From positions 186,001 to 250,000 of the forward strand of contig KV748220.1 of assembly GCA_001692895.1 (NCBI GenBank): a stretch of 64,000 bases of DNA. The letters run 5' to 3'. A program made the translations under genes and the position numbers. This DNA is from Cenococcum geophilum 1.58 (taxonomy: Eukaryota; Ascomycota; Dothideomycetes; Gloniales; Gloniaceae). How positions within the stretch are numbered: the first letter of the stretch is position 1; every line of letters starts with the position of its first letter. The notes under the pieces were generated by a model, which was given only the letters and a program-made list of their open reading frames with translations, was not told the DNA's origin and did not search any database. Of this stretch, positions 15,338-42,734 are shown piece after piece.

Positions 15338-17507
15338 CTGTATGTTGTCGAACTGTTTCCGAACGCGGTTCTCCGGTTCTAAGTCCCACATATTCAGCCC
15401 CAATCTTCCCACCAGGAGGCATTCTTTCTGCTATACAGAGTCCTCAACCTTTCTCTCCTACCCTTTTAGTGTCCAGCATAGTTCGGCCTCAAGGCAGCAC
15501 TTTCACTAGGCAGAGTCCAGCTCCTATCCATCGATCTCTTCCAAGCTTGCTTCCAGGCTCTCTAGACGCTTTCCCAGGCCAATTAGCATTAGTACAGCCG
15601 TACCTCCCTAGATCTATGCTACCGCTAGAAATAGGATATATTATAACAGATTCTATATGGTATTGGTATAAACAAATAGACGAAGAGTGTCTACGAGAAG
15701 AACTACCTAGAATGGAAATTTTGTATAGAACTAACCACTCTGAAACCTTAGGCATATTATCTAAATTAGGTAATATGCTTATAGACCAAGGAAGATGCAA
15801 GTCCGTAGAGGAAGTGATTTGTAGATTAGTAGAAGGTCGCCGAAATGTAGACGGAAATGATAATATCAATACACTTAATGCCTTAAAGCTCCTTAGAGAA
15901 GTATTAGGCCATTAAAGACGCTATGCTAAAGCTAAGAAACTATACTAAAGAACATTTAAGTCCAGAAAGGCTATACTAGGAGAGGTGTATCTAGATACGC
16001 TCACTAGTGTTAATAACCTTAGGTTAGTACTAGAGAGCTAGGGGAAGTATAAAGAGGCGGAAGCGATATACCGGCGAGCACTAGAAAGAAGGGAGAAGGT
16101 ACTTAGGCTAGAGCACCTATATACGCTTACTAGCGTCAGCTACCTTAGGTCGGTATTAAAGAGCTAGGGTAAGTATAAAGAGGCGGAAGCGATATACTAG
16201 CGAGCACTAAAAGGCGAGGAGAAGGTACTTAGGCTAGAGCACCTAGATACGCTTACTAGCGTCTATAACCTTAGGTTAGTATTATTAAGCTAGGGCAAGT
16301 ATAAAGAGGTAGAAGCGATGCACTAGCGAGCACTAAAAGGATATAAGAAGGTACTTAGGCCAGAGCACCTATATACGCTCACTAGCGTTAGTAACCTTAG
16401 GTTAGTGTTATTAAGGTAGGGCAAGTATAAAGAGGCGGGAGTAATGCACTGGCGAGCACTAAAAGGATATAAGAAGGTACTTAGGCTAGAGCACCCATAT
16501 ACGCTCACCAGTGTCAGTAACCTTAGGTCAGTATTATTAAAGTAGGGCAAGTATAAAGAGGTAGAAGGGATGCACTAGCGAGCACTAAAAGATAGGGAGA
16601 AGGCACTTAGGCCAGAGCACCTATATACGCTCACTAGCGTCGGTAACCTTGGGTTAGTATTGTCGAGGTAAGGCAAGTATAAAGAGGCGGAAGCGATGCA
16701 CTAGCGAGCACTAAAAGGTAGGGAGAAGGCACTTGGGCCAGAGCACCTATATACGCTTACCAGCGTTAGCTACCTTAAGTCAGTATTAAAGAGCTAAGGT
16801 AAGTATAAAGAGGTAGAAGCGATATACTAGTAAGATCTAGAAGGATCTAAGAAGGTATTTAGGCTAAAGTACCTAAACACGCTTACTAGCGTTAGTAACC
16901 TTAAGTCGGTATTAGAGAACTAGGGCAAGTATAAAGAGGCGGAAGCGATATACTAGCGAGCACTAAAAGGATATAAGAAGGTACTTAGGCTAGAGTACCT
17001 ATATACGCTCACTAGCGTCAGCTACCTTAGGTTAGTATTATTAAGATAGGGTAAGTATAAAGAGGCGGAAGTAATGCACTAGCGAGCACTAAAAGGCGGG
17101 GAGAAGGTACTTAGGCTAGAGCACCTAGATACGCTTACTAGCGTTAGCTACCTTAGGTCGGTATTATTAAGGCAGGGTAAGTATAAAGAGGCAAAAAAGA
17201 TGCACTAGCGAGCACTAAAAGGTAGGGAGAAGGTACTTAGGCCAGAGCACCTATATACGCTCACTAGCGTTAGTAAGCTTAGGTCAATATTATTAATCTA
17301 GAGTAAGTATAAAGAGGCGGAAGTGATGTATAAGCACTAGGATGGGAGAAGATACTTAGGCTAGAGTACCTATATACGCTTACCAGCGTATATTATCTAG
17401 CTTTTCTCTTTTATTACTAGGAGTAGCGTAAATCTATATTTAAATTTTACTAGAGAGTATATAATAGCTATAACAGAACTCTTAGATTACAATATCCTAT
17501 TACTATC

Positions 17508-17790
17508 CCTTAACCCGCTAGAATGCGTTCTACTATTATTAATAAGAACTAGCTAATTAGATTAACCAAATTGAATTATTATAGGAGTAAAATCGGGCAG
17601 CGGCCATGGCTTTGGTGGTGGCTTTTTAGTATATTAATTCGGCTAAACGTTATATTAAGTTGGTTAAATAAGGTTTATATTATTAAAAGTATAATTAGAA
17701 AGCATTATTAGTAGTAATTAGCCATATATATTATTTTTATTTTAGCGTTTAAGCACGGACTAGCTTCTGGTAGGACGCTAGTAGGTTAAG
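17508..17790. mobile_element. MITE-like inverted-repeat element (CTTAACC family)
   Basis: Begins cttaacccgctag and ends ctagtaggttaag, a 13-bp imperfect terminal inverted repeat, about 283 bp long. The same terminal sequence, followed by ttattaataag, occurs at 26,234-26,357, so this is a small family. No coding capacity. Confidence 0.5.
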
Positions 17791-18073
17791 AAATAGTATG
17801 CTTTAGCTATTACTCGTTAATAGTAGAGGAGATAAAGTCTTAGTAACTGTTAAGCCTATTTAGATACAAGGAATAACGTATAGAGTTATTTTATTTTTAT
17901 TTCCCTATCTCCCAAATTTTCCCTTTTAAAGCTTATATTTAATAGATATAATATATAGAATTTATATATTATAAAGTATAACGGCTATATACGATAATAT
18001 ATACCAGGTACTTAACCTATTACGTTATAGACTTTAATTTACTAATTTTAGGTAGGGTTACGTAGCGTATCTC

Positions 18074-18118
18074 TAGTACTAGTAAGGAGGGCGGCCGAAC
18101 CGCTCCGGCTATACTCTT
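18074..18118 (-). repeat. Terminal motif copy T1
   Basis: Reverse-complement copy of the motif that reads aagggtgtggccagagcggg at 53,054 and 19,419. Its interior would lie to the left, towards the Clr5-TPR gene, but I could not find a left partner. The next bases read ttaa. Confidence 0.65.
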
Positions 18119-18134
18119 AAGGATATAGCCGATA

Positions 18135-19199: not shown

Positions 19200-19416
19200 C
19201 TTACTATACTTTAACGGTATTATATTACTTTCCTTTATTTCCTATATTAATTATAGCGCCAAAGGAAGGAGAAATAGCTCTTATAGTTGGCTACTAAATT
19301 GGAGCCGGTATAATTCGTGTCAGTTTACTCTAGTTAGCGCTTAGTAACGGCCTATACTCAAGTTAGACGGTGTATAGCTATAATAGAATATATATATATA
19401 CATATATATATATATA
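19200..19416 (+). mobile_element. LINE 3' end with (TA)n tail, copy 1
   Basis: The sequence ttactttcctttatttccta through gcgcttagtaacggcctata and a (TA)n tail matches the DNA that follows the reverse-transcriptase-family C-terminus at 45,165-45,375. It also occurs at 43,795-43,999 and, inverted, at 51,340-51,500. It is best read as a 5'-truncated Tad1-like LINE end. Confidence 0.6.
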
Positions 19417-19464
19417 CAAGGGTGTGGCCAGAGCGGGTTGGCTAACCTCCCTACTAGTAGTGGC
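19417..19464 (+). repeat. Terminal motif copy T2
   Basis: Core caagggtgtggccagagcgg followed by ctccctactagtagtggc. It follows directly on the (TA)n tail of the LINE end. It is the left end of the 7.3-kb unit. Confidence 0.75.
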
Positions 19465-19557
19465 AACATCAAGTGCCAAATCATCTCTATTACTGTCCGA
19501 TATTACTTTATAAGCACGCTAACTCGGCTACGTAATGTCTAAGCTTAGCTACTTTTG

Positions 19558-20371
19558 CACTGCCTTATCTTATAAATCAGACCCTTAGTAGACTATTAGT
19601 ATATATACTACGCGTACGGGCGGGTATACTGCTCCTTATTAACCAACAAATTCTTTACCGAGGGTCAGAGCTTATAGGCGTCGTTTTGGTATAAACTAGA
19701 TTGTTTTAAAATCGATTTTTGTATATTTCTACGAGCTACGTCTAACTACGAGGGTTATTATATATTTTGTTGATGTATTAGATTCTTTAGGTAATTATAT
19801 CTTTATAAATATATACTATAGCCCTATATCTAGAATATTAAGGGGCGAGATATATTATTATGGAATGTGAGTTAGATTTTAAAACGTAGCTTTGTTTAAA
19901 TCAACTAACTGCCTATATCTAACTTCTCGTAGAATAGAGCTACGATATCGCTATAACGTAGAGGCGATAGAGAAGATAAAGAGCTTTTAGCTTATAGTAT
20001 TTTAGAGATAATTAGACGTAGAGAAGTATATAAGGTATGGCAGTGAGGCAAGATTGTAATAAAAACTAGCTAATGAGTTTTGGATAAATTTTTGATTAAA
20101 TGCGACTGACTGCCTATATCTAATATTTTATATAATACAGCTATAACGTCGTTATTTGATGCAATAGATAGAGAAGCTAAAGAGCTCCTACCTTGTAGTA
20201 TTTTTGTAATAACTAGACGTTATAAAAGGGTCGAGATACGGCAGTGAAAAATGTGATTTTTGGTGTATTTTGACGCCTCGTTACTCCTAGACCCTTAGTG
20301 GAGAATTCGTTGGTTAATAAGGAGCAGTATGCCCGCCTATGCGCGTAGTCTAATTTATAAGATAGGCACTG
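19558..20371. mobile_element. Inverted-repeat element, about 0.8 kb
   Basis: The left arm (cactgccttatcttataaat, then actacgcgtacgggcgggta and tactgctccttattaaccaa up to about 19,670) is matched in reverse complement by 20,284-20,371. The left arm carries about 30 extra bases. Between the arms are two diverged direct repeats of about 190 bp (19,865-20,050 and 20,070-20,250), each starting near gactgcctatatcta and ending near cggcagtga. No coding capacity is seen, so it is probably a non-autonomous DNA element. Confidence 0.6.
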
Positions 20372-20534
20372 CCCCCTACCATTATTTGTAACTCGCTCCT
20401 TTAAGGTGTTCTTTTATGAATCTACTAGCTAGCTAGCACAGTCCGCAGTTCTTTAACTGCTTGACCTGTGTATATCTTGCCTACATCTATTCTAATAATT
20501 TCCTTAGCTAGACCTCTCTAATAATTCTCTCCTT

Positions 20535-20660
20535 ATGCGTCTTTTGCGGCTTAAAGATGACGGTGAATTCAGCCTAGTCGAATTTGTTGGTAAGAACGCT
20601 ATGCTGTTCTTTTATATACTTAGGGAGCGGATAATAAAGAGGTTACCTTTTTCTGCGCGT
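20535..20660 (+). pseudogene. HET-domain N-terminal fragment
   Basis: Starts at an ATG and reads MRLLRLKDDGEFSLVEFVGK, the typical opening of fungal HET (heterokaryon incompatibility, PF06985) proteins. A second frame a few bases on gives YAVL then GADNKEVTF, matching the YAILSHTWG...EVTF start of the HET core. A shift of frame lies between them, and after EVTF the similarity ends, so this is a truncated 5' piece. HET proteins trigger cell death after non-self recognition. Upstream 20,380-20,534 is a pyrimidine-rich stretch that may be its promoter. The rest of the 81-codon frame is a continuation out of register. Confidence 0.65.
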
Positions 20661-20727
20661 CGAAGTTGTGGCTATTCATTATCCTCGCCATCTTCTTCCT
20701 CGCCGCTTGACGAGCCGTTAAGCTCCG

Positions 20728-20844
20728 TCAGTATTGGTAGGATTGAGGTGGCAATCGCGGTGGCAGTGGTAGAAGTTTAGCGAGGATGGCTCCAGTAGCT
20801 GCATTAAATTCGGCGTTGTTATCGTCGTCGTCGTTAAAATCCAT
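20728..20844 (-). CDS. Possible short Asp-rich ORF
   Basis: A 38-codon minus-strand frame begins MDFNDDDDNNAEFNAATGA and ends before a TGA. It lies in lightly mutated DNA just after the HET fragment. The acidic, Asn-rich start could be the first exon of a gene or chance. No family recognised. Confidence 0.2.
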   Translation of the reverse strand: MDFNDDDDNNAEFNAATGAILAKLLPLPPRLPPQSYQY

Positions 20845-21115
20845 AATAATAAGATAGGTAGGTAGGAGCGATATAAGGTTATTTGGTAGAGCTCTGCAGG
20901 TCTGCAGAATTTGTAGGATTGCTTACTACTAAGCCGTATATAGAACGCCTCCTTACCAACGGTTACAAAATGTCAAATTTGACAAGGCTTTGCATACTGC
21001 GCCGAGCCTTCTATATAGGGCCTAGCTGATTACAAAAGAATGCTATAATATTGAGGTGTAAGAAACTAGGAGGCGACCCCTATACCGACTGCGCAAGTTA
21101 TCTAAGGGTGCGTTT

Positions 21116-21507
21116 AGTTGCAAGTTTAGATTAAAATAAGGGCTTTAGAATAGAGTTAATCTAGAGCTCCAATCTGATTCTAAGGCGACCGTTTAGTTGA
21201 ATTCCAGTTCAACTTAACTTTAGCTATAAATTTTTGATGTTCCTTTAACCGCCTAAAAAACACGCTAAAAGTTACTAAAAAGTTGGCAACTTTACTGTAT
21301 ACGGCTTCTAAACTGAAGGTCTTAGCGTTAGTTTAATCTAGAGGTCTAAGTTCTAGACCCTATTTAGTTTCAATCTAAAGTCTCTAGATTATATATGCCT
21401 ATGCTTTTATAAAGCCACAAACGCGTACTAAATGAGGAAGGAACGCGTCCTTTTCTACTAGACCTTTAGTTTAGATCTAATCTGAAATTTTGCAACCAAA
21501 CACAGCC
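21116..21507. mobile_element. 392-bp MITE with TAA flanks
   Basis: Left end gggtgcgtttagttgcaagt and right end ttgcaaccaaacacagcc form imperfect terminal inverted repeats of about 30 bp. Both sides are flanked by TAA (21,113-21,115 and 21,508-21,510), as expected for a 3-bp TWA target of PIF/Harbinger-like elements. A 5' part of a second copy is at 37,206-37,310. No coding capacity. Confidence 0.7.
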
Positions 21508-22064
21508 TAATTAAACCGTATTATATTGAAGTGTTATGATGTAAATAGATATTCCTTTTATTTTAAATAAAATCTTCTTCAGTAACTATAAACTTAGAGT
21601 CCGTGCATAAAGAGCAGAAGTGTAGCCGGCGCCTTATAACGCGTCCCATGCGCTACCCTGTAGGCGTTAGGACCTAAAGCTAGATATAGAGCTAAGAGAG
21701 GAGTAACTAGTCCACTATAACGTAGCTTTATGCCCTTAGCCGCTATAAACCTAGCCTTCTCTCTAGTATTTGCTTAGCTCTTACACTCTCCCAAAAAACG
21801 CATGTCTACCTAGACGGCGAACGTGGCGATGGAGTAAGCGCTGGCACTAACGCTAGCTAAAGAGCAGGGCGGAGAGCCAAATCTAGTCGACATAACCGGC
21901 CTCTGCTTATTATCGCTCAATAGCGGCGGAGTTTAAGGTTTATCGACGCTCTATATCTTAAAGGGCCTTATAGCCTAACTAAACTAGGCACGTTAAGCTG
22001 CTAACCTTCCTTTAGTAAAGCTATGCGAAGTCTTTGACCTTATCGGAGGCACTAGCATAGGAGG

Positions 22065-22109
22065 GTATGTATAGTACTCTTTTTCGACGGTTTTATCTAA
22101 TATAAGTAG
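22065..22109 (+). other. Predicted intron 1 of patatin-NLR gene
   Basis: gtatgt to tag, 45 nt, with a ctaat branch-like sequence near the 3' end. Splicing yields the continuous elbow GGTSIGGLIAIMLGR expected for a patatin domain. Confidence 0.75.
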
Positions 22110-22352
22110 GCTTATCGCTATTATGCTCGGCCGGCTTAAGATGGATATAGATAAATGCATTCTAGTATATAACAAACTTTTAAAGGCCGTGTTTAAGGAG
22201 AAGTTAAGCTGGCTTCTAGTTAGTTGGATAGGTAGAATAACGGCATAGTTCAATTTAAATAGGCTAAAAAGCGTAATTGAAGAAGTAATAGGCAGCAAAG
22301 GCGCCTCTACGGTGGATGTCTTTAATGATGGGAAGCTTCGTGGGTATCGAAC

Positions 22353-22399
22353 GTAGGTATACCATAGCTACGACACGCGCACCGCTTATAGACCAGCAG
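22353..22399 (+). other. Predicted intron 2 of patatin-NLR gene
   Basis: gtaggt to cag, 47 nt. Splicing joins NDGKLRGYR to FVCTVAKETVGITRLRSY, a continuous patatin-family stretch. Both flanking exons are otherwise open in these frames. Confidence 0.65.
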
Positions 22400-25300
22400 C
22401 TTCGTATGCACCGTTGCAAAAGAAACTGTTGGTATCACACGCCTAAGGAGCTATACCTTACCCGACGAGCGCGATATTCCTGCTACTATCTGCGAAGCAG
22501 CTCTTGCGACGTCCGCGGCGACCGGTTTCTTCGACGCTGTTTCTATCGGAGCGCGCCAGTTCGTGGACGGTGCCCTAGGTGCAAATAATCCTATTAATGA
22601 GGTTAAAGGAGAGGCTACGAATATCTGGTGCTCTAGGACTGGCGACTTAAAGCCTTTAGTAAAGTGTTTTATCTTAATTAGGACAGGAAACCCTGGAAAG
22701 AAAGCGATTAAGGATAATATGCTTAAGTTTCTCTCTAAGACGCTAGTTAGGATCGTGACCGAGACAGAGGATACAGAAAGGAAATTCGTAGCTAGATAGG
22801 CTAAGCATTTTAACAAAAATCGCTATTTCCGCTTTAATGTTAATTAAGGACTTTAGTAAGTTGGCCTAGCTAAGTATAAGGAATAGGGTAGGATTGAGGC
22901 AGTAATGGACAAATGCCTTAGATATTAAGCTCAGAAATTCCAAGTACGGGATTATATTTAGAACCTACGACAGAAGTAAAGTATATATATTAAGGTAGCA
23001 GATTAGTTGCCATTATTCTTAGGCTAATGTCGTTTAGGTAGAACAGATGCAAACTTTGCTGCTATTATATATATAAGGCAAGATAAAGACTATATCAGTT
23101 CGGAGCTCACTCTATATAGGAATATAGTATTCGTATTATATAGCTTTATATAAGTATAGCGCCTTTCTCTTTTAAGTTACCCTTGTTAATTTCCATCTAG
23201 CCGCCCGTAAGGCTTGCTAGACCGTTCCTTTCGCAAGGAATCAGCGATTTATGGGCCGCCATTCTTAGCTTAATCAACTTAAAAACACCCTTTTCGCTAA
23301 AAACCAATCGCTAAAGTTTGCAATTACCGGCCTTGGAGGCGTAGGCAAGACCCAGATCGTGCTTAAGCTAGCCTACTAAATAAGAGAAAAATATCCAGAA
23401 TGCTCTATTTTCTAGATACTAGCCACTAACACTAAAAGCCTTTAACAAGCGTACCTTAACGTTGGTTGGCAACTTAGAATACCCGGACTATAGGAGGAGT
23501 AGGCTAATGTAAAGAAGCTAGTATAACGTTACTTAAGTCAGGAGAGTACGGGCCAGTGGCTGCTTATATTTAATAATGCTGATAATATAGATATATGGAT
23601 TAATAAAGGCGGGAATAAGAATGATTTCTATAGTTTAAAGGACTACCTACTAAGGAGCCGTCAAGGGTATGTTATTCTTATAACGCGAAGTAGGAAAATT
23701 GCCGTTAAGCTCGTATAGTCTAATATAATTAAAGTCTTAAAGATAGACAAAAAGGTGGCCACGTAGTTGCTAAGCAAATCCTTAATTAATTAGGAGCTCT
23801 TAAGCAACCACTAGGAGGATACTCTAAAGCTACTCCAATAACTTACTTTCCTCCCCCTTACAATTATATAGGCAGCTATATATATTAACGAGAACGGAAT
23901 AACGCTATCGGACTATCTATTGCTCCTAGAGGAGTAAGAGTAAGACATTATCGATCTCCTTAGCGAAGACTTTGAAGACGAAGGGAGATACTAGGACGTT
24001 AAGAATCCCATAGCAACTACATAGCTAATCTCATTTAAACACATCCGGCGGCTTGACCCCCTTACGGCCGAGTATTTGTTATTTATATCGTGCGTAAACC
24101 CGAAGAACATCCTGCAGTCGCTTCTTCCGCCGGCACAATCTCGGAAGAAGGAGACGGACGCGATCGGGACGCTAGACGCTTATTCTTTTGTTAGTAGGCG
24201 ACCTAGGGATCACGCTCTCGACGTCCATTGACTGGTGCATCTCGCAATACGGAACTGGCTTAGGAGAGAAGAGTCGCTAATACGGTGGGCTGCGAAGGCG
24301 ATAAAGCGATTAGAAGAAGTGTTTTTAAACCACGACTATAAGAACAGGAGCGTATAGAGAGCATACTTGGCGCATGCGCGTTATATGCTTAAATCTAATA
24401 ATATAAAGGATGGTATGCAAGAGAGAATAGAACTCCTTTAGAAGTTCGCCATGTGCCTTTATAGTGATGGGAGGTATAATAAAGTAGAGAAACTATTTTT
24501 ATAAGTAATGGAGACAAAACAGAGGGTGTTAGGGGTAAAGTATCCTTCCACGCTGACTAGCATGGCTAACCTGGCGTTAACGTACATAAATTAAGGGCGG
24601 TGGAAGGAGGCTAAAGAGCTGGAGGTACAAGTAATGGAGACAAGTTTAAGGGTGCTTAGGGCGAAGCATCCTTTCACGCTAAGCAGCATGGGTAACCTAG
24701 CGTCGATATACAGTGATCAAGGGCGGTGGAAGGAGGCCAAAGAGCTGGACGTGCAAGTAATGGAGGTAAGAAAGAGGGTGCTTGGGGCGGAGTATCCTTC
24801 CACGCTAAGCAGCATGGCTAACCTAGCGTCAACGTATAGGGATTAAGGGCGGTGGAACGAGGCCGAAGAGCTAGACGTGCAAGTAATGGAGACAAGAAAG
24901 AGGGTACTTAGGGCAGAGCATCCTTTTACGCTAACCAGTATGGCCAACCTGGCGTTAACGTATAGGAATTAAGGGCGGTAGAAGGAGGCCGAAGAGCTAG
25001 AGGTATAAGTAATGGAGACGTTTAAGAGGGTACTTAGGGCGGAGTATCCTTTTACGCTGACTAGCATGGGTAACCTGGCGTTGATGTATAGGAATTAAGG
25101 GCGGTGGAAGGAGGCCGAAGAGCTGTCTATGTAAGTAATGGAGACGAGTTTAAGGGTGCTTGGGGCGGAGTATTTAGATACGCTAACTAGTATAAACAAT
25201 CTCGCATTTATGTTTAAAGCCTAAGGCTGTAACGTTAAGGCTATTTTACTAATGGAAAAATGCTTTTAGCTACGGAAATAGGTCCTTGGCCCTTAGCATC

Positions 25301-25432
25301 TATATACTATATTATTGCTTATAGCTCTAAATAAGTGGTAGCTAAAGAATATAGAGATTGGAGTTTAAAGAGACTTTATTTTATATTATATACTTATAAG
25401 TATCCTAGGCATAGTATAAAAGAGGTTATTTA

Positions 25433-25691
25433 GGGGCTGTTTAGTTGCCACTTTATATTTAATATAAGGTGGTTATTTGGTAAATCTAACGACTTTTAAA
25501 TATGAAGCTCCTCTATATTAGTAAGCGCGTCAAATTTGCAAGCTATACTCTATACGGTAGTTAAAATGAGGTTCTTGGCACTGTTTTAATATATTGCTTT
25601 CGAGCCTCCGTTCTATATTCTATACCAATCTAGAGGTCTTATATATGCGCTAAAGTAATGACTTCTTATAATATGGCGACTCCAAACACCC
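25433..25691. mobile_element. 259-bp MITE with TA flanks
   Basis: Left end ggggctgtttagttgccac and right end gcgactccaaacaccc are inverted repeats of about 25 bp, each followed outward by TA. The termini resemble those of the 392-bp MITE at 21,116 (g-rich start, then gtttRgttg) but the interiors differ. It lies just past the 3' end of the NLR gene. Confidence 0.65.
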
Positions 25692-25699
25692 TAATTGTG

Positions 25700-26230
25700 A
25701 TACTGTTGTTGCATTTACATGCCTTATATAATATTATTATTCTAACCTTTGTGATCGCGATAAGCTTGTTTCTAGGGCGTCGTAGGCATTGCTGTAGCTC
25801 TACTACGGCTTATACGGGAGGTGGGTAAAGGTGTAGAAAGCGTTAATTGCAGAGAGGGCGTTGGCTGAGGAGGAGGCTTATTACTATACTAAAGTAGGGA
25901 GTCGCGATAGAGGCCTGGTGGCAGAGAGGAGCTCACTTAAATCGCTCGCTGACGTTAATCACGTATTATGCGAAGCCAAATCTGGAGCCTTATATGGAAG
26001 CTTACCAAATAATTGACTTAATTATAGATTTAAACAAGCTATAGTAGTAGCCGCTACTAATTATAGAACGGGCGATATTAAAATACGTATAAATTGAACA
26101 AATATAATATAGAGCCGATTTGCAACTAAATATACCTTTAGTTAATAGAGCTCGCATAGGCCCTATATATCTTATTTATAGTAGTAACCTAAAGCTAGTG
26201 CAAACGCGGAATGGGTTAAGCTACGTAAGT
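25700..26230. other. No gene recognised
   Basis: Moderately RIP-affected DNA. A short Glu/Arg/Ala-rich plus-strand stretch near 25,830-25,930 is not convincing as a gene. Confidence 0.3.
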
Positions 26231-26233
26231 ATG

Positions 26234-26357
26234 CTTATCCCTTAACCCGCTAGTTCTGGCTCCTAGTTATTAATAAGACTTTAGCTAATCTAGGGCTCTT
26301 TATTGGCTAAAGTTTTATTAATAACTAAGAGCTAGAACTGGTAGGTTAAGAGATAAG
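26234..26357. mobile_element. Hairpin MITE (CTTAACC family)
   Basis: Two arms of about 55 bp (cttatcccttaacccgctag onward, with ttattaataagactttagct) are near-perfect inverted repeats with a loop of about 10 bp. Its termini match the element at 17,508-17,790. Confidence 0.75.
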
Positions 26358-26359
26358 TA

Positions 26360-26668
26360 CGGAGGTCCCTAATAAAAGTTCTTGTACCTTCCTAATTAGG
26401 AAGTTTTAGACTGACGTACGCGCAAGTATAGGTGCGTATTTTACAGTCTACGTAGCGTATACTAGAGTCTATATAGCGTATATTAAGGTACGCAAACTTT
26501 AAATATTAATTTACTAGCCTAATACTATATATAATAAAAATTCCCTATTATATTTTTAATTTATACTTAGTAAGATAATATATAAAAATATAGAAAGCCG
26601 TAATAAGTATTATTATTCTTAAAACTTCCTAATTAGAAAGGTGTAAGAACTTTTATTAGGGACCTCTG
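26360..26668. mobile_element. 309-bp Tc1/mariner-like MITE
   Basis: Terminal inverted repeats of about 50 bp, starting cRgaggtccctaataaaag and continuing cttcctaatta, flanked on both sides by TA (26,358-26,359 and 26,669-26,670). TA duplication and a CAGAGGT-like start fit the Tc1/mariner superfamily. It sits immediately inside the right terminal repeat of the 7.3-kb unit. Confidence 0.8.
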
Positions 26669-26708
26669 TAATGTCTAACGGTAATAAAAGTGATTTGGTA
26701 CTAAATGT

Positions 26709-26757
26709 TGCCACTATAAGTAGGGAGGGTGGCCGACCCGCATAGGCTATACCCTTG
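26709..26757 (-). repeat. Terminal motif copy T3
   Basis: Reverse complement of the T2 motif, ending ggctatacccttg. It is the right end of the 7.3-kb unit. Confidence 0.75.
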
Positions 26758-26792
26758 TTTTCGTGGCGTATGTATGGCTATAATAGAATATA

Positions 26793-26975
26793 CACCACCC
26801 TGGTATATCCGGTTGAAAGCGTATATTAATCTTAGTAGTTAAACGGCAGATTTTATACCTTTTAAAGTAATACGCACGGCCACTTTAATATATTTTTACC
26901 TTTTTTAGGTATAAATCTAGGCATTTTAATTAGCGTGATTAATACGCGCTTTTAACCGGATGCGCCAAGGTGGTG
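26793..26975. mobile_element. 183-bp Tc1/mariner-like MITE
   Basis: Termini caccaccctggtatatccgg and its mirror ccggatgcgccaaggtggtg form inverted repeats of about 45 bp flanked by TA on both sides. On its left is tatggctataatagaatata (typical LINE-tail text here) and on its right tatatacgttttcgtggcgt (start of the 1.3-kb unit seen at 18.13 kb). Confidence 0.75.
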
Positions 26976-27164
26976 TATATATATACGTTTTCGTGGCGTA
27001 CACTTTAAAAGTCTTTTAAAAAGGACACGTTGTTAATAAGTAAGGCTAGTTTGGGTGCCCGTAATGGGGCACCTAACACTTAATTAAATTTAGTTTAGCG
27101 GATAATAAACCCTAGTCTAAAGCGAATAGCTGTAAAAAGCCAGTACTTGGTATACTTACGATAT

Positions 27165-27560
27165 TGATAAGTACCTATAAGTAGGAGTACCTATAATTAC
27201 GGGGAACACCTATAATAGAAGGGAGTATTTATAATAGGGAGTACTCCTAATAGTAAGGAGTACCTATAACAATAAGGAGTACCTACGACAATGAGGAGTA
27301 CCTACAACAATAAGGAGTATCTATAATGGGGAGTACTCCTAATAGTGAGGAGTACCTACGATAATGAGGAGTACTTACGACAATGAGGAGTACCTACGAC
27401 AATGAGGAGTACCTACGATAATGAGGAGTACCTATAACAATGAGGAGTACCCGCGATAAAGGGGAGTGCCTATGGTAACGGGGAGTACCTATAATGTTAG
27501 GGAGTACCTATAATGGTGGGTACCTATAATAGTTGGGAGTAACGGGGAGTGCCTATAGCG
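27165..27560. repeat. 19-bp minisatellite
   Basis: About 20 tandem copies of gaggagtacctacgacaat with variants, most regular in the middle, with a 19-bp period. Outer units are more diverged and include the palindrome gagtactc. 27,560-28,253 holds nothing I can name. Confidence 0.8.
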
Positions 27561-28253
27561 ATATGCCTTTGGCCGGTTTTCATTAGCTGTCTCTAAATAG
27601 TTGGCGTTTAGCTTACGTATTTTACTTACGGATTTCGTAAAAAAGCATGCTATTTAATTAGTATTTATATCGCTTTATTTTTATAAATTAGAAAATAGAT
27701 ACTTTAATTATAATGTAACTCTTAGCTAAGTTATAGTAATTACTAGAGATCTCTATAAGAGTCTTTACTATAGTTAATTTTAGGCCATCCTAAGGAGAAA
27801 TATCCCTTGGGATGCCCTACCTAAACCTATATTATACTAGTTTAGTCTTAATAAATTACCTCGGTTATATAATCACCTTAGTTATACAATTTTCTAGCTT
27901 ATTAAAATGTGCTGGCGTTTTCTTAACTGGTATAGGATAGAACTTTTCCTTTAAAGTAGTTAGTAGTCCGTATAGTAATAGAGAGAAGAGGGCCTACTAG
28001 ATCTTGTAGGTTTAAAGGCTATAAAGGTTAATCTATAGACGTATAGGTATAAAATCGACCGTTGCGCTATATTAGGATATAGCAATCTACGTTATAGTCT
28101 CGCTTTAATCTATTAGCCTTTTATAAAAAGGTCTCCTTTTACTTTTAAAAATTCTCGTTTATGGCTCGCTTTGACCTTAGTAGTAACCTTTACTTTAAAC
28201 ATATTACCGTAGTAGTAGATAATTAATAGCCTATTGGCGTTTTGTAGGGTAAC

Positions 28254-28432
28254 TAGGGTGCAAGTTGGCTCTAAATTGTATATTAATAAGGTGGGAATAT
28301 TAAGAATAAATATAGAATCTACCCCTTAATATTAGCCTAAGTTTTAACTGAAAACAAGATCTCGTTCTAAGAACTGGATCCAATTCTAAAAACCGTATTT
28401 TAATTCTAAAGGCTATATCCTAATTCTGGGTC
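28254..28432 (+). repeat. Dispersed repeat copy 2 (pair with 6,521)
   Basis: Same-orientation partner of 6,521-6,700. This copy keeps more CA/TG (for example actggatccaattct), so it is the less mutated of the two. It is followed at 28,510-28,640 by a short segment with two related phrases, taattttaaagactggatct and a variant ending gggatccagttttcgg. Confidence 0.65.
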
Positions 28433-28639
28433 CTAGACGTACTAAGTGTGACTAAAAAGATATAGTATTGAGCTAATCGGATTATTTTTAGTTCTGGCTT
28501 AAATTGCGATCTTAATTCTGGTTTTGGGGCATAGGCCAATTAACTACTATAAAAAGGGTGTAATTTTAAAGACTGGATCTAGTTCTGGGAACGGGATCCA
28601 GTTTTCGGAAAACAGGTCAATTAACTGCTGTAAAAAGAG

Positions 28640-29284
28640 GTTGCCTATATCTATATTTAGCATGTTAGGTTTAGCTCGTTTTAAGATTAGCTACGTAATC
28701 GATTATAGGCGCGTGCACGACCAACCCAATAATCAACCTACTCTCGCAGCTGCACCTTGCCTGGCGCCTTTAGCATTACTGCATTAGAGCCTCGCTCTAT
28801 TTAAGCCTTACGTATTATAAAACAAACTAAAGCTGATAATTATAATTAGTTATAGACTAATAAATGCTACCTGTAGCTTTCTAATAATACTGGAATCCTA
28901 TATACGTACTATGTTTTAGCCTATACAACCAAAGACTATAAATGGTGTCCCTGTACTTTAGGTCATTGTAGCTTAATATTTAACTAAGCCCCGCGAAGCC
29001 TTAGTCTAAGCCACATTGGATTAGCTTAACTTTTCCGCGCCTAATCTACAATCCTTATGTTCTGCTTATACTCTGCTTCCTTCCTTATACTTTTCTTCCT
29101 TATTATATCCTTATTTTAAGACATGTGACGTATCCTTAACCTCCTTGCACTTATTTACTTCTCTACCATTATACCATTCGTTATATCCTAGCCTCTTTAA
29201 TATCCCCTCCTCGCCTGCCTACCTGCCTGCCACGCTAGCCCTCCCAATATAGCTCTTAGCGCATTCGCCCGCAATAGCGAATCT
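28640..29284. promoter_or_regulatory. Possible FunK1 5' region, pyrimidine-rich
   Basis: Lightly to moderately mutated DNA with a CT-rich tract (29,085-29,130, cttccttccttatacttttc) that resembles the pyrimidine-rich leaders of filamentous-fungal promoters. No TATA box or start codon can be fixed because the gene downstream is degenerate. Confidence 0.3.
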
Positions 29285-31670
29285 CTTTAAATTAAAGATA
29301 ATTAAAACGAAGCCTATTAGGGAAGGATTAAATGACTTTTGCGATTTATTTAACTTAATATATTAGGATCTGGGTATTCCTAGCTCTTTAGACTCGTTAT
29401 ACTAGATACGTAATAAAGGTAACTGTTAATATACCTGTTATAAATTTTCGTTTAACGCCTATAGGACTAAAGGATATTTTGCTTAATTTAATACTTACTT
29501 TACAGAGCCTTCCTACTTTTTGTTTATTGCCGTCTAACAGCGGCAATAAAAACCTCCTTGGTGATCTGTTAAGACTTAATTTAGTAGTTAATTCTAACGA
29601 CTTTGATATTAAGCAGTTCCTGCCTCTTCTAAATGCGATCCTTTAAATTAAACCTAATGAGGTTATCTAGGAAAAGGTGTACGCTACTATTATAGAGTTT
29701 ACGCCTCCCCCCCAACCGCTACTATTCTACGTTTAAACCCTATATTAATGTAATATAAGTAGCTTTGCCAACTCGTCTAAATACAGGAAATACGTAGATA
29801 ATGTTCTAAAGGAGGAGCTAGGCCCTCTTTATGTGGGGATTCCTGGCTTATATAAAGCATTCTTTAGGGGAGTTAAAGGTTTTAAAGAGGTAAGCGCCGC
29901 CGTTTTTAAGAAATATAAGGAAGGGGACAATCTATTATACGCTGAGGGCGGCTAGCATAACTGGCCTAAAGGCGCGAAAGAATGTGGAGTCCTAAAGTGG
30001 TTTAATAAGCTAATTATATTATTTTTAGACTTTATAAAGGAGCATGGGTTTGTTCTAAAGGTATAATAAAGACTAGTAGAGTATACTTAGCAGCCCTTAT
30101 AAGGATCTACGGCCGACTAAAAGCTAGATATTGGCTTTGTGGATAATCTAATAACCGGCGAAAGCTCCTAATGCTATTAGTTGTATATACTTGTATTAGG
30201 AGAGCTAAAGAGTAATTTAAATACTAATATAGCCTTGAAAGTATGGTTTGATTTAGGGAAATATATAAGGGAAGTATTTGCCGCTTAGGATAGTTGTTAC
30301 TTTATTCTAGGCTTTACCCTCTATGGATCTATTATGCGGTTATAGGAGTATAACTAGGTAAGAGGCGTTGCATTATTATTATTTGATATTAATAAAGACG
30401 GACTATAATTTACCTTAGCGATGTTAGGATTTCTCTAAATAAATAAGGAGCAGCTTAGGTTTAACCCTACTATTCTAACATTAGATGGTAAATAATATAT
30501 TAAGGTTATATATAATGATTAAACCGAGCGTTTTATCCTTAATAAACTTATAAAGCGGGTACCCTGTGTCGCTGGTTAAGCGATTACTTGCTGGAAAGTA
30601 TACCGCGAGGGCGACACCTTTAAGATACCCTTTGTTATTAAAGACTTGTAGTAGTACCTAGAGCGTAAGGAAGAAGGTAAACTGCTGCGTAAAGTGATGG
30701 GGAAAGAAGTGGTTAATGTGGCTAGGTACTATCACTATGAGACAGTTTATATAGGTGGATAAGATGATGATATCTATAATATCTATAAGGGGCTGGATAT
30801 TATAAAAGTGATAAACTATAAGCTAGAAGGCTTAATAAAGCCTCTAAGATTAACTAGAGTATAAATTAGTATAAGGAAAGGTAGAAGTTCTAGTAAAAAG
30901 AGATCTTTTAGCTATACTAAGCTACCGCCTAGTAAGCGTACGTGTTTAAGCTCTCCGAATAAGCTCCCTATATAGAATTGAGTATATTAACGCGTTATTA
31001 CTTATAACTATAGGAAGGCTCTTTATAAGGTAAGCTCTTAGGCTGTAATGCTTGCTATACTAGAGGGTATTATTGAAGGATATGAGTCTTTATATACGTA
31101 GGCCGGCATCCTTTAATACGACGTTTTAATAGGCAACCTCTTAATGAACGAGGAAGACGATAATCCCTTCTAGAAGTTATTCTTAATTAATCTTAATCTT
31201 GCGATTAAAGAGAAGCGGGAAGGACCTTTGGGAGTATAGGGCAAGACTAGTATAAGAGCGTTTATGGCTATAGGAGTGCTTCTTGGCGAGAAATATTCCT
31301 TTAGGTATAATCTGGAGTTGTTCTTTTAGGTACTTTTCTGGATATACGTACACTATAATAGGTTAGGTAAAGATATCGGTCTAACTAAGTTTAAGTATTA
31401 GAATTATAAGAATACTATAAAGCTAGCTAAGTTAAAATTGGGCCTAGTAAGCAGAGAAGGCTATTTTCTTAACTATATAGCTGAGGTATTTATACCCTAT
31501 TACTAACCGCTAAAGCCGTAGGTTAATAGGCTGTAGAAGGTGGTTTTCCTAATAGATAGTAGGTAGGAGAAGGAAGATAGGGCGCTTTATTTTTAGATAA
31601 AAGATATTCTCTAGTAAGTACAGAAGGATTTAGAGGTGTTAGTAGAGTAGATAAAATAACATTTTATTGT
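29285..31670 (+). pseudogene. FunK1-type fungal protein kinase remnant
   Basis: Family of fungus-specific kinases (PF17667), expanded in many fungi. In order on the plus strand: LGELKSNLNTNIALKVWFDLG (30,190, cf. 20 residues from LGELKSNL), YFILGFTLYGSIMRL, a lysine segment FVIKDL (Lys at 30,640-30,642), RYYHYETV, a Ser/Lys-rich linker with KRTCLSSP-like text near 30,950, the catalytic loop YDVLIGNLLMNED (Asp 31,120-31,122, Asn 31,135-31,137), LINLNLAIKEKREG in place of the usual IDLDLA, AFMAIGVLLGEKYSF and FFxVLFWIYVHY. The C-terminal part ends near 31,660. RIP-type stops occur throughout, so it cannot work as a kinase. It is near full length compared with the family. Minisatellites lie on both sides. 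Confidence 0.85.
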
Positions 31671-31959
31671 CCTATAGTCTTCTACTATATAAGTTAAAGT
31701 TTTATAGAGATTTGGGCGGCTAAGGCTAGGTAGCAGCCTTAGTTAAAACGTATGTAAAATAGCGTAGGGCGAGTTGCCTGGGCTAAATAAACCCGGGAAA
31801 GCGGATAACCTAATCTTCCGCCAAATTATTAGATCTCTATACCCTACTATCCTATATAGGCTTTATGTTTCTATAAAATATGTAATCCACTTTCTAGCCT
31901 ATTAGAAGCCGCCTTGTGCCGCCTAAATAGAGGCCGTAGGAGAATTAATCCCTTCTTTT

Positions 31960-32330
31960 AACTAATCCCCTACTTAAATAAGTCCCCTACTTAAACAAAT
32001 CCCCTACGGGAGCTATTGCCTACGTGTTTCGCCGCCCTATAGGAACTAATCCCCTACTCCTAATAATCCCCTACGGGATATGATCCCCTACTTTAACAAA
32101 TTCTCTACGGGATCCACTCCCCTACGGGATCTACTCCCTTGCGGTAATAAATCCCCTGCGGTAATAAATCCCCTGCGGTAATAAATCCCCTGCGGCAATA
32201 AATCCCCTATGGTAATAAATCCCCTGCGGTAACAAATCCCCTACGGTAACGAATCCCCTGTGGGTGCTAATGCCTATGTATTCTACCGCCCTATAGGAAC
32301 TAATCCCCTGCGGCTTGTATTCCTGTACAG
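31960..32330. repeat. 17-bp minisatellite (aatcccctgcggtaata)
   Basis: About 12 regular and several irregular copies of aatcccctgcggtaata, with a 17-bp spacing (32,167, 32,184). Ends include a related phrase ccgccctataggaactaatc seen twice (about 32,030 and 32,285). The 88-codon minus-strand frame across it is a repeat artefact. Confidence 0.8.
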
Positions 32331-32464
32331 CTTTTGCTTTCCTATAAGAGATTGCCCTAGAGGTAGCTCCGCGAAGCCTAGAGGAACTCTGCTCCAACAG
32401 CTATAAATAAAAGGGTTAGTCTGAAATACGTTAATGGCGCCGAATTTAAAAGTGTAGGTGTGAT

Positions 32465-32640
32465 TAAGAGCCCTAGGGTTAAAAAGCCCTGAGGGAAAAA
32501 TCCCCTAGGGGAAAAAAGCCTTGGGGGAAAAATCCCCTAGGGGAATAATCCCGTAGGGGAATAAACCCCTAGGGGAATAAAGCCCTAGGGGAATGGAACC
32601 CTAGGGGAATGGAACTGTAAGGGAATGGTACCGCAAGGGC
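32465..32640. repeat. 16-bp minisatellite (ccctaggggaataaag)
   Basis: About 10 copies of ccctaggggaatggaa-type units, 16 bp, each with a palindromic cctagg core. It lies 135 bp after the 17-bp array. Confidence 0.75.
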
Positions 32641-32811
32641 TTCTATAAATGGGCGAATCGCTAGGATTTATTTTTGTCCTCAGCTTCTCGGCTTTTAATT
32701 GGTTGGTACGCTTTGCTAAGCCTTACTGGCTTATGCTTTAATAAGTTGCCCTGTGCTGTTTTATGTAAGTTATATCTAAGGCTGCTGCCTGGACTTGGAG
32801 AGAAAGAAAGA

Positions 32812-32956
32812 GGGGGATTAAGTAAGCTCTGAGAATTGAGTATTTAGTTTTAGGTATAAATGAAGGGCTATTTTTAGCTTCTAAGAGGGTCTTAATTTTG
32901 GATGTTTCGAGCGCCTAAAATTAGGTACTCTATTTTTAGGGTTTACTTAATCCCCC
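32812..32956. mobile_element. 145-bp foldback element
   Basis: Perfect 14-bp terminal inverted repeat gggggattaagtaa / ttacttaatccccc. Inner parts (gtatttagttttagg against cctaaaattaggtac) extend the fold to about 40 bp per arm. A related sequence is at 13,813-13,917. Confidence 0.7.
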
Positions 32957-33087
32957 GAACCCTCCTCGCTCCTATCTTTAACCTTTACTTTTCCTTTTAA
33001 GTAAATGGCGTAAAAAATCCCAATCTAGCGATAAAATTTCCGTATAGCTTTCCTATCTACTAGCAAAGTTAAGAAAACGCCAAGCAT

Positions 33088-33387
33088 CTATATAATGCAT
33101 CTCTTAGCTAAGACGAGACGCCACGCCGAATTTATGGGGCTAGTGCTAATCCCTATGGAAGACCCGCCTACGGGAGCGCCTATACCTTTAATGTGTATCC
33201 GTTGATGAGGATATAGGTTGGGGGTTTTGGTATAGTTTAGTTGACTTAGTAACCGCGCTAAGCTAAACGCCGAGCAGCGGAGGTAGTGCATTACCGCCAT
33301 AACGCTATACTTAAGACCGTTTATTCTAACACCAACTACAGTTCCCCTATTTCCTCTATTCTTTAATCCTAGGAAGTAGACCCTTAA
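33088..33387 (-). repeat. Segment shared with 46,990-47,196
   Basis: On the minus strand, gctgctcggcgtttag..., then a stretch ending accaaaacccccaacc, and on the plus strand ccgccataacg with caccaactaca, recur upstream of the PD-(D/E)XK-like gene at 47 kb in the same orientation and the same distance from a terminal motif. A 70-codon minus-strand frame here (MAVMHYLRCSAFSLARLLSQ at the start) is not recognised and may be chance. Confidence 0.5.
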
Positions 33388-33435
33388 TAAAGGTGTAGTC
33401 AGAATAGGTTGGCTACCCTCCCTACTAGTAGTGGC
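33388..33435 (+). repeat. Terminal motif copy T4
   Basis: taaaggtgtagtcagaatag followed by ctccctactagtagtggc; RIP-altered version of T2. Preceded by cccttaa. Confidence 0.7.
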
Positions 33436-33649
33436 GATGTGTAACCTAAACTAATGCTGAACTAACGCCTTTTATATACTTTAAGGACGCTTATACGCTA
33501 ATAGATAAAAGCCGGTCTATAATATATTTAAGAACCTTACTAGTATACTACTTATTGCTATACGCTAACTAGGGCATATAAATAATAGAGGATTATGCTA
33601 ACTTTATACGCGCCTTATAAACTATCTTATAGGAATAAATAGCCTTTAG

Positions 33650-34600
33650 CTATACTGCGTTTCTTAAACTAGAGATAAATAGTACTTAAAGCAAGTAATA
33701 GTAGTAGAATGCTCCGGGCTAAGTGCACGTTTATATCCACTGCTTACCCTTTAATATAGTACTAAAGCAGCTTTATATTGTTACTATTAATAAAATAGAA
33801 AAGCTAGGTAGTATATACTAGTTAATATATTAGGGTGCTCCTTTCCTAGTGCCTTTTCTCTTCCCTTTAGCGCCTGCCAGTTTATCTCCTCTATTACTTT
33901 ATACTTTCCCTAATACTGTAGTACCGACGCTATAATGCTAGTGCTTACTAGGGTATAAAGATTATTACCCCCTACCATCCTCTCCCTAAGTCGTCATTAC
34001 TTTTATTACTATACTCTCAGCTATTTATAGCTCCCCTTCGTCTATATATACTATATAGCGTTACTTAACAATTACGCCTAGTTCCCTAGTAATTCTTTAT
34101 TAGCTAGTTTGCCCTTTAATATAGACTTAATATAGGGAAACAACTTCTAGCACTTCGTCCGGTTCTTAAATCTCCTATTAAGGAATCCTCTTGCTATTAA
34201 CATAAAAGGCTTCTATCTCCATCGCTCTACCTTATTAAATGACAATAGCTAGACCCTTATGCAGAACCGCATTAACTAGTACATCTTATACACATCGCTC
34301 TTCGTAGCTGCTGTTATTAGCAAATAGGCACGTAAATATATCTAGGTCGTCGTTAAACTCGCCATTGTTATTATTATCCTTATCCTTATCCTTATTATTA
34401 CTTTTTTCTCTTAAGTAATACCTGCCAGGTAGTTGTATGTCAGGTGGTTTTTATATCCTAGTTTCCCTTAATAGCCTCCCTAGATAGATAATCGCATCGC
34501 CTAAGCAAAGGCAGTAAGTAATATAGTTATAGTATAGTTAGTGCGTTAATGAAAATTTTTTATTACACTGACTTTGCGCCTTAGTGAGTATTAGGTAGTT
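33650..34600 (-). pseudogene. NLR fragment: winged-helix plus TPR (left arm)
   Basis: Inverted copy of the right-arm fragment at 41,380-42,440; see there for motifs. The Asn/Asp-rich codon run (attattatccttatccttat at about 34,370) and the TPR end near 33,740-33,930 are in matching places. More degenerate than the right arm, with RIP-type stops in all frames. Confidence 0.65.
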
Positions 34601-35129
34601 TGTTAATGTTTATCCAATACTACTCTTAAAGGTAACCTGCCTTATTAGGAGAAGGTATTAGAGTAAAAGTGCCGCCAATAGGTCGATAATTGGCGCGCTT
34701 TCTTTTTGCTTTAACAAGATAGCACTTAATATAAGATAGCTCGTTCTTAATAGGTATATAGTAAAAAACCAGCTTCGTAAGTTGCGTTAGGGAGACTTCT
34801 ATATAGGTCTAGCTTTTTAAATAACTAATAGCGTGCTACGATTGTTAAAGAGGTAAAAGAGGTAATTTAAGATAGTAGAGGTAACGGCTATAGCTAAGGT
34901 AGAGGGCGTAATAATAATATAGGTTTTAAGGCGATATAAAGTGTTAACAGCGGATTAAGCTAATTAGAACTTGGCCTTAAAAAGACAGATATGAAATTCT
35001 AGCGGTGATCTCTATACTTCTATACTCTAGGTAGAAGCACTATTTAGCTCTTATTAATAGTAAGGATCTAGCTATAGCCCTTATTTTTATAACTAAGCCA
35101 ACTATATAGTTTGCCAGCTTAGCGTTTTA

Positions 35130-36220
35130 GTGCTACGTAAAAAGGCTGTTACCTATCTACTCCTTAAAATGTCTCTTCCCTTTAACACACATCCTTTTAA
35201 CTATTTAGCTCCTAATCTGGTACCTAGGTTTATTATAGTTTTTATACTATGCCATTCCCTATATACTAGGGATATGCGTTTAACCTCTCTAGTAATATGT
35301 TTTAAAACTCCGATGCCGTTTTACTAACGGCCAATCTATCTAATATTAACGTTACCGCGCCAAAATACAACACTATACCAATATTAGTTAACTATATAGA
35401 CCTAGCTAAATTTATCACAAGCGATGTAGAGCTTACTATTTATCGCAGATTCAACAGCAGTATAGCTTAAATTCTTCTCTCTTTATAGAGCGAGATATAG
35501 CAAAAATAAAATCTTTTTAATAATGAGACTAATAAGTCTAAAAAGAAAGAACTCCTCTTAAGTATAAAAATATAAATAAAAGATTACTATAAGTAAATGC
35601 AGTATTCTAGCACGGCTTTAAAGATAATAAGACTAATAAATGTTATAGATAAGATATTAATCCTCTAAAGCCAAGTTCTAAAACTTTAGCCGCTAGTTAA
35701 ACGTGTTATATAAACTTTCTTCTATTAGCTAGACTATAAATGCCCTTCCTTACGGCATAAAACTGAAGTGTTCACTAAGTATAATAAGGCAGATATAATA
35801 GCATTAAGACCAGCGGAGGGTAATAATCCGTTTTTACGTTTCTTAAGGGATAACTTTAGTAGGGTACTAAGGGTAAGGCTACAGTACCCATATATAGTTA
35901 ATGGCTAATACGCTAACTAAAAGGTAATATAATAGAGAAAGAATAATAACTCCTTAAAAGAACCTGAGCTAGGTAGAGAACTTTACTATATCCCAGAATC
36001 TTATATTATAAAGGTTATAACGGTAATAAGCATCGCCATTACAGCTATTATACTAGTGGCTATAATTATATTATTATACTATATAAGCTCGCCGGGAGCT
36101 AGGCTAGGCATAGTTACCGCCTATATATTAGTCTTTGTAGTTAGCATCGCTCTATTCTCCGCATAAAGAGTAGAGGTTTTTATAGCTACTATAGCGTAAG
36201 TTAAGACTTTGATTTAAGTA
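35130..36220 (+). pseudogene. DUF6594 membrane protein remnant (left arm)
   Basis: DUF6594 is a fungal family of unknown function with two or three C-terminal membrane helices. The frame from about 35,312 reads NYIDLAKFITSDVELTIYRR, FNSSIA, LLLSIKI, LRDNFSRVLRVRLQYPYIVN, the conserved RELYYIPESYIIKVI (about 35,980) and then two hydrophobic helices (TVISIAITAIILVAIIILLY and RLGIVTAYILVFVVSIALF), ending near 36,215. Stops are RIP-type. A 65-codon open stretch just upstream (35,130-35,327) reads LPFNTHPFNYLAPNLVPRFI and is shared with the right arm; it may be an upstream exon or a separate piece. Confidence 0.75.
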
Positions 36221-36429
36221 TAAATATCTCTTCTAAAGTAATTTACTAATTATATATCGGACTTACGCAGATTTAGAGCAATCTTAGTAGTTTTTATAAG
36301 TGGGGATTTAGCAAAACCAAGATAGTAATAAACATTAGTATGGGCTTGTAAACTTAGTTAGACAGGATATAATCTATTTAGTAATTAATTTAATATGTTT
36401 TCTCCCTAAGATATATAGAAGAATTAAGG

Positions 36430-36585
36430 TACTCTATATAAATGTATCTAAACACTAAAGAAAATGCATTAGGCACTCTATGCAAATATATTTAAATACC
36501 TAAGAAAATATATTAGGTTCTCTATATAAATACATCCAAACACCTAAGAAAATGTATTAGGTACTCTATATAAATGAAAATAAAC
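36430..36585 (+). repeat. 43-bp tandem repeat, left cluster
   Basis: Three to four units with aaatgcattaggcactctat and aaacacctaagaaaatgtat. Inverted relative to the cluster at 38,093-38,232. Confidence 0.65.
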
Positions 36586-37310: not shown

Positions 37311-37384
37311 AGGTTACTAGGTTATAACGGTCCACCTAGTGGGTTAGGGTTGTAGGTCGGTGGCCGCTATAATGGAGGCCCATT

Positions 37385-42707: not shown

Positions 42708-42734
42708 TTAAGATAGAGGGTAATATATACGTTT

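Follow-up and report, generated by a model that had tools for sequence, protein, structure and literature searches.

A 64-kb stretch of the genome of the ascomycete Cenococcum geophilum 1.58 (contig KV748220.1 of assembly GCA_001692895.1, positions 186,001 to 250,000; here called the window) carries a unit, E1, in which the remains of a NOD-like receptor (NLR) gene lie between terminal inverted repeats (TIRs). Ends of the same type recur throughout the genome, mostly around NLR genes or genes encoding a HET domain. On balance, these units are probably NLR cassettes bounded by TIRs that form a dispersed, non-autonomous family, which would have been mobilized in trans and later altered by repeat-induced point mutation (RIP) and recombination. 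The original prediction, made from the letters of the window alone, held that an immune-type gene may move as cargo of a non-autonomous element. This idea is partly supported, and at the scale of the family it is stronger than was claimed, while E1 itself is an old, RIP-inactivated member. A cassette would measure ∼2.4 to 14 kb and typically hold one NLR or HET gene, or in some cases two NLR genes or an NLR gene with its partner, between inverted ends that each combine a shared core of ∼45 bp with a subterminal stretch. Such units could spread as non-autonomous DNA elements if a transposase recognizing the ends acted in trans. Their cargo would vary through capture or recombination of NLR genes within the ends, as suggested by copies that share TPR and end sequence yet differ in the N-terminal domain, and RIP would afterwards have killed many copies.

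The ends of E1 were located with an inverted repeat search of the window and a hidden Markov model (HMM) of the family ends. The left TIR (positions 19416 to 19506, plus strand; core beginning ACAAGGGTGTGGCC, with a subterminal stretch of type I) and the right TIR (26668 to 26758, minus strand) are 91 nt long and 78% complementary, which bears out the inverted repeats predicted for both ends of 19417 to 26757. In a comparison of the E1 arm with 260-bp pieces of the window, reverse-complemented and taken in steps of 130, the best segment was the partner arm (score, 82), followed by a segment near 42.7 kb (72), which is another end of the same family, and then by a score of 49. Transitions account for 14 of the 20 mismatches between the arms, a pattern expected from RIP. 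RIP-type dinucleotide skews are strong over the entire window, which is A+T-rich. A 22-bp direct repeat (TGTATrGCTATAATAGAATATA; 95% identity) lies on both sides of E1 at 19371 to 19392 and 26771 to 26792, 23 bp (left) and 12 bp (right) outside the core. Both its length and its recurrence exceed what an ordinary target duplication would show; the motif is also found near ends at loci L010, L019, and L032.

Searches of the genome (177 Mb in 162 contigs) with each E1 arm gave 33 and 40 matches. A degenerate 35-nt core pattern, with up to two mismatches allowed, was found at 292 sites (135 forward and 157 reverse) compared with none for the reversed-pattern control, and a chance origin of the ends was set aside on this basis. 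One hundred of these sites and 47 from the arm searches were merged to give 137 known cores. Among the 34 pairs of neighboring known cores no more than 15 kb apart, 24 were convergent, 7 were back to back, 3 were in tandem, and none were of the fourth kind (binomial P of 3e−8 for the convergent class against an expectation of one in four). Recurrence of TIRs as convergent pairs at many dispersed loci is a feature of Class II (TIR) DNA transposon families. The units enclosed by convergent pairs range from ∼3.5 to 14 kb, with a smaller candidate of 2.4 kb with weak ends (70%) at L033. Units are spread across many contigs, and some are nearly filled by a single NLR gene with long open frames. Cassette genes with frames of this kind occur at L010, L011, L018, L021, and L046. 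That the ends are a conserved promoter or terminator of NLR genes was set aside, since ends of a single type flank a gene on either side in inverted orientation and also surround a unit (L027) with a transporter gene.

To read cargo independently of gene content, 20 loci (L009 to L028) were fetched solely by end similarity, taken down the ranking of the 32 other E1-arm matches; where a single end was known, as at many of these loci, up to 10 kb inward was counted as inside. NLR- or HET-type domains were identified inward of the end in 15 of the 20 using Pfam and tblastn. With Pfam, these comprised HET with NPHP3_N, which we take to be a NACHT-type domain (L009), PNP, NB-ARC, and TPR (L011), PNP with ankyrin repeats (L018), HET with TPR (L020), HET, TPR, and an NB-ARC/NACHT-like domain below the cut-off (L021), HET (L025), and patatin with ankyrin repeats (L028). 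With tblastn only, HET was found at L012, L015, and L016, TPR at L013 and L019, a TPR fragment at L022, and PNP, ankyrin repeats, and TPR at L026. At L010 (549 to 4019), one cassette holds a TPR gene with an NB-ARC-like region (tblastn only) together with a divergent HeLo-SesB gene, an arrangement like a receptor-effector pair. A further five convergent units, known beforehand from their cores alone and picked from the 24 pairs for clean cores or short length rather than cargo, all contained NLR/HET domains: NPHP3_N and ankyrin repeats (L045) and PNP, NPHP3_N, and ankyrin repeats (L046) by Pfam, and HET with ankyrin repeats (L047), HET (L048), and TPR (L049) by tblastn. Locus L050, fetched for a match to a Mutator-like element (MULE), also had TPR cargo near the end (tblastn). 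Further inverted end pairs enclosing other cargo, the check proposed originally, were thus encountered repeatedly, and their cargo was mostly NLR/HET genes. The PNP-headed unit at L011 shares TPR and end sequence with L013, and the HET-headed unit at L021 shares the TPR part; N-terminal domains therefore differ within related packaging. Tandem arrays of more than 3 kb were observed inside two HET-bearing cassettes (L012, 4036 to 7417, ∼70-bp units; L025, 922 to 4087, ∼67-bp units). A 4.9-kb stretch, 85% alike between L015 (3 to 4871) and L023 (5134 to 10000), is probably another repeat element.

The association was assessed further by comparing sequence on either side of the ends. In tblastn searches with NLR/HET queries, 16 of the 19 segments inside units gave matches, which covered 30% of their 108 kb; this figure is partly self-match because the queries include the units' own genes. 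The same queries had no match in the 27 outside segments (flanks and spacers; 48.6 kb). This comparison mostly omits one-ended units, and the left limits of two of the units used, E0 in the window (12000) and that at L028 (1), are arbitrary. Ten outside open reading frames (ORFs) examined with Pfam included a cysteinyl-tRNA synthetase and ECM11, with weak PH and SUKH-4 matches below the cut-offs and no NLR; the synthetase gene lies 3.5 kb from the L011 unit and ECM11 1.6 kb from the L019 unit. A genome-wide count was also made of genes at most 8 kb from a known core on its inward side and short of the partner core, a rule that placed the NB-ARC gene at C7:442856, past the partner end, outside its unit. 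By this count, 3 of 33 NB-ARC genes, 6 of 149 HET genes (from the best 150 of 439 candidates), and 2 of 45 patatin genes (excluding the window's own) lay inward of a core, as did none of 81 cytochrome P450 control genes. Combined, 11 of 227 NLR-type genes were inward compared with ∼1.4 expected from a uniform spread (0.6%). The majority of NLR genes accordingly have no known core beside them, and only a subset lies within the units.

The extent of the repeated unit was examined by comparing ends with one another. The two ends of one unit match inward for at least 85 bp in 9 of 11 candidate pairs, the most alike being those of L027 (93% over 227 bp) and of E2, a second unit in the window (84% over 1,013 bp). 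Where the two ends compared lie on opposite sides of a spacer, by contrast, the match is limited to the ∼45-bp core or less in all seven comparisons made (six spacers, with two comparisons sharing one end). For 121 end pairs with at least 100 bp of in-register homology, homology starts within 2 bp of the first core base in 76, and L011 and L013 share a 2,070-bp stretch of homology that starts inside the gene, includes the end, and stops 1 bp outside the core. Taken together, inward matching of the ends and homology breaks at the core make the core-to-core segment a more coherent unit than the spacer. The true termini may nevertheless lie farther out, as the inverted match extends 10 to ∼50 bp outward of the core at L045, L047, L049, and L027. 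The predicted limits of E1 (19417 to 26757) hence agree with those of the conserved core, but given the outward match in some sister copies, the real element may exceed them. Outside the core, outer arms of recurring types span 100 bp to more than 1 kb, and inner and outer modules are joined at the core in various combinations.

On three contigs (C31, C5, and C12), successive units are separated by a spacer of ∼1 kb or more, termed X, to give unit-spacer-unit chains. In L029 to L032, X contains minisatellites of ∼25-bp units, and in each copy read both of its ends adjoin family cores. The unit flanks A and B are themselves repeated, lie ∼1 kb apart in X, and adjoin the core in L026 and L028 to L033. 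A second repeat, C (L011, 1 to 344; L017, 5787 to 7324; L027, 382 to 1918), is of high copy number (248 candidates, 40 scored), has a sharp end and the same orientation among the fetched loci, and is followed shortly by a family core in 19 of the 40 scored copies, none being reported in the other 21. The mobile thing could on these grounds be X, or repeats such as C, with the cores as their ends and the units as trapped host DNA, and it is in keeping with this that no unit-free A-B joint was found. We consider this quite improbable, since ends match over the core or less across spacers (7 of 7) and farther inward within units (9 of 11), homology between units mostly ends at the core, convergent neighbors outnumber divergent ones (24 versus 7), and the cargo is not random. 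In addition, the right flank of L010 had no match and that of L011 one 43-bp match among the other fetched loci, the set to which both comparisons were confined, with no genome-wide search made. Spacer X as the sole mobile thing was set aside on the comparison of ends across spacers with those within units.

Several results weigh against movement of the cassettes by transposition. No target duplication was found at the core boundary in any of 10 pairs, with tests placed at that boundary and true termini that may lie farther out; a single 5-bp flanking match was seen, offset by 5 bp on each side from the boundary. None was seen by eye at L045 to L049 either, and the clean target duplications originally anticipated were therefore not obtained. 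The joined A and B flanks of L026 had no match in the genome as an exact pattern, and a 300-nt query across the joint retrieved no unit-free copy among 40 scored of 151 candidates, which is odd for simple insertion. In the units examined, no transposase clearly belonging to the family was found. One Tc5/pogo-like pair at L024 lies over 5 kb away from an end whose partner was not found, and a broken MULE lies 3 kb inside the end at L050. The genome-wide search covered MULEs and not hAT, Harbinger, KDZ, or other families; of its 79 matches, 1 was located at most 8 kb from a known core on the inward side (0.49 expected). On its own, the E1 pair does not stand out from unrelated ends of the family, as 48 of 219 unrelated end pairs score equal or higher, so that the case rests on the family. 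Across the 11 end pairs, only those of E2, L027, and L019 score above 95% of the unrelated pairs, because many family ends share one subterminal type. In 19 of the 121 end pairs, the homologous stretch starts over 10 bp outward of the core, and the flanks outside the core are repeats themselves. One NB-ARC, one HET, and one patatin gene, and no P450 gene, lay on the outward side of a core only. Lastly, 5 of the first 20 loci had no recognized NLR (L014, L017, L023, L024, and L027). L017 encodes a 481-amino-acid ORF with no named domain, L023 a subthreshold SesA match (E value, 0.019), L024 an amino-acid permease and Tc5-type transposase ORFs, and L027 an SBF transporter; PDB look-ups of two ORFs in L017 and L027 gave nothing useful. 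For the originally proposed cargo role, the recurring inverted ends with NLR/HET cargo speak in favor, while no clean target duplication, empty site, or transposase demonstrably of the family was found, and E1 itself is RIP-dead.

The missing target duplications (0 of 10) and own transposase are what would be expected if the ends were long-lived boundaries of an NLR superfamily whose units are duplicated, exchanged, and rearranged without a transposase, homologous or ectopic recombination and gene conversion acting between cores, arms, and TPR/ankyrin repeats. The varied combinations of inner and outer modules joined at the core and the chains on C31, C5, and C12 fit this as well, and diversification of fungal NLR clusters without tandem duplication has been proposed in the literature (PMC12258605, consulted in part). 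Boundary recombination of this kind is the main competing explanation, and we hold it to be possible, if rather unlikely. It does not readily account for the inverted arrangement of the ends around the gene, for units on many contigs, two of them (L011 and L019) near housekeeping genes, or for L027, which has the most alike ends after E2 and holds a transporter gene with no recognized NLR. The same assortment of inner and outer modules at the core would also fit a cassette system dedicated to immune receptors, in which hundreds of conserved cores would serve as exchange points. A recombinase or transposase working at the ends would there insert and swap whole NLR/HET genes and pair them anew, while the outer arms stayed in place. 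This seems to us unlikely; if true, NLR repertoires would turn over by cassette exchange instead of tandem duplication. A giant Starship-type or other large element could alternatively carry the NLR clusters, the TIR units being substructures or nested cargo. PMC12134995, in the portion available, reports an NLR in a Starship and lists patatin-like genes among those noted in such elements, and PMC12506042, likewise, gives a case of a TIR element nested inside one. Such a carrier is nevertheless very improbable here, given that some units lie near housekeeping genes and that a Pfam scan of 70 ORFs, of which at least 11 lay outside units, found no captain-type recombinase domain (DUF3435), this domain not having been searched genome-wide.

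Under the favored reading of mobilized cassettes, E1 is a decayed copy. Its gene is a pseudogene, dead from RIP. The patatin domain region (21886 to 22796, plus strand) is broken upstream of 22392, and its open part (22392 to 22796) matches Pfam Patatin (E value, 1.1e−7). Reading by eye placed a GT..AG intron of ∼42 nt at 22065 to 22106 and the motifs GTSIGG and DGA in this region. Using tblastn, 23347 to 24732 matched NB-ARC/NACHT-type open frames of other loci (best E value, 5.7e−44) and 24301 to 25365 matched TPR open frames (best E value, 8.2e−115), the matched frames including those of L011 so named by Pfam. The NB-ARC region (23347 to 24126, plus strand) contains 16 stops in 260 codons. 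The TPR region (24301 to 25365, plus strand), built of 126-bp tandem repeats, has 15 stops in the 351 codons of its frame at 24301 to 25353 (8 TAA and 7 TAG). With 4 stops in 59 codons of the 5′ part of patatin and 1 in 61 and 0 in 135 in the other pieces, the total is 36 stops in 866 codons over the five pieces counted, and the reading frame is not intact. The predicted main cargo, a patatin-NB-ARC-TPR gene, was therefore correct in its domains and their order, an architecture of fungal NLRs, and not in its integrity, as the gene is broken by RIP-type stops. A HET fragment and MITEs (miniature inverted-repeat transposable elements) had also been proposed inside E1, and both were recovered. 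The HET-domain remnant consists of two short pieces at 20529 to 20650 (plus strand; tblastn to a HET-domain frame; E value, 2.3e−7). MITE-like inverted repeats were identified by the inverted repeat search at 19604 to 20352 (63-bp arms), at 26234 to 26357 (a short inverted repeat with 56-bp arms), and at 26358 to 26670 (51-bp arms, abutting the right TIR).

Pack-type elements (Pack-MULEs and others) are non-autonomous, with long TIRs and captured gene sequence that varies from copy to copy, and the cassettes are like them in these respects. They differ in that Pack elements carry mainly pieces of diverse genes, whereas the cassettes have cargo strongly biased to one functional class, some whole NLR architectures in long open frames, and no target duplication found. 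Among the literature examined, the nearest well-documented case of gene cargo between long TIRs in Dothideomycetes is ToxTA (formerly ToxhAT), described in the accessible part of PMC12506042 as a 14-kb non-autonomous TIR transposon with ToxA in wheat-infecting species. Both carry several kilobases of cargo between long TIRs (74 bp in ToxTA and 91 bp in E1), show no transposase clearly their own, and have RIP-damaged copies. In contrast, ToxTA is single copy, with TA target duplications and an empty site (PMC12506042), whereas the cassettes have hundreds of ends and many NLR/HET cargoes, with neither target duplication nor empty site found. Starships likewise carry NLR and patatin-like accessory cargo in Pezizomycotina (PMC12134995, same portion), but they have a tyrosine-recombinase captain and are far larger than the 2.4- to 14-kb cassettes, which have inverted ends and no captain seen. 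The cargo has the protein architectures given for fungal NLRs in the section of PMC4986451 consulted, namely patatin, PNP_UDP, HET, or HeLo N termini with NB-ARC/NACHT and TPR or ankyrin repeats, and clustering of NLR genes is common to the cassettes and to the fungal NLR clusters of PMC12258605. In the open-access literature searched, as far as its text was available, no description of inverted ends packaging single NLR genes was found. If the favored reading is correct, the family would be unusual among TIR families for its hundreds of ends and for cargo drawn largely from a single functional class. Short inverted ends are below the length threshold of RIP and too short to trigger it alone. 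Packaging of single NLR genes between them would thus provide a direct route for NLR repertoire turnover despite RIP. How such repertoires grow and turn over when RIP acts against gene duplication is described as not understood in the available part of PMC12258605. Every unit would further be a presence/absence marker between strains, and the ends would predict receptor positions.

Besides E1, three family ends in the window adjoin TPR-type genes, and one more has an ORF with a CHAT domain inward of it. Rfam gave no match in the 64-kb window. Unit E0 (15709 to 18120; HMM of ends and tblastn), for which the left end was not found, has a plus-strand TPR-type gene with 21 stops in 531 codons (15727 to 17319) before a minus-strand family end at 18120. 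E1 and E2 are separated by a spacer with minisatellites (26759 to 33386; sequence reading and repeat searches), in which a repeated B-type outer arm with an insert (∼32344 to 33386; repeat comparison) adjoins E2. Unit E2 (33387 to 42708; HMM of ends, end comparison, and tblastn) has inverted ends of ∼1 kb (83.9%), each with the broken end of a TPR-type gene (33685 to 34335, minus strand, and 41576 to 42430, plus strand; tblastn and stop count). A plus-strand family end at 53051 was detected with the HMM without a partner (region 53051 to 56105), and the CHAT-domain ORF lies 2.6 kb inward of it (55620 to 56105, minus strand; Pfam CHAT; E value, 1e−7), possibly a further cell-death-type gene in the same packaging. 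Next to this caspase-like ORF is a tandem array of ∼135-bp units at ∼56932 to 59517.

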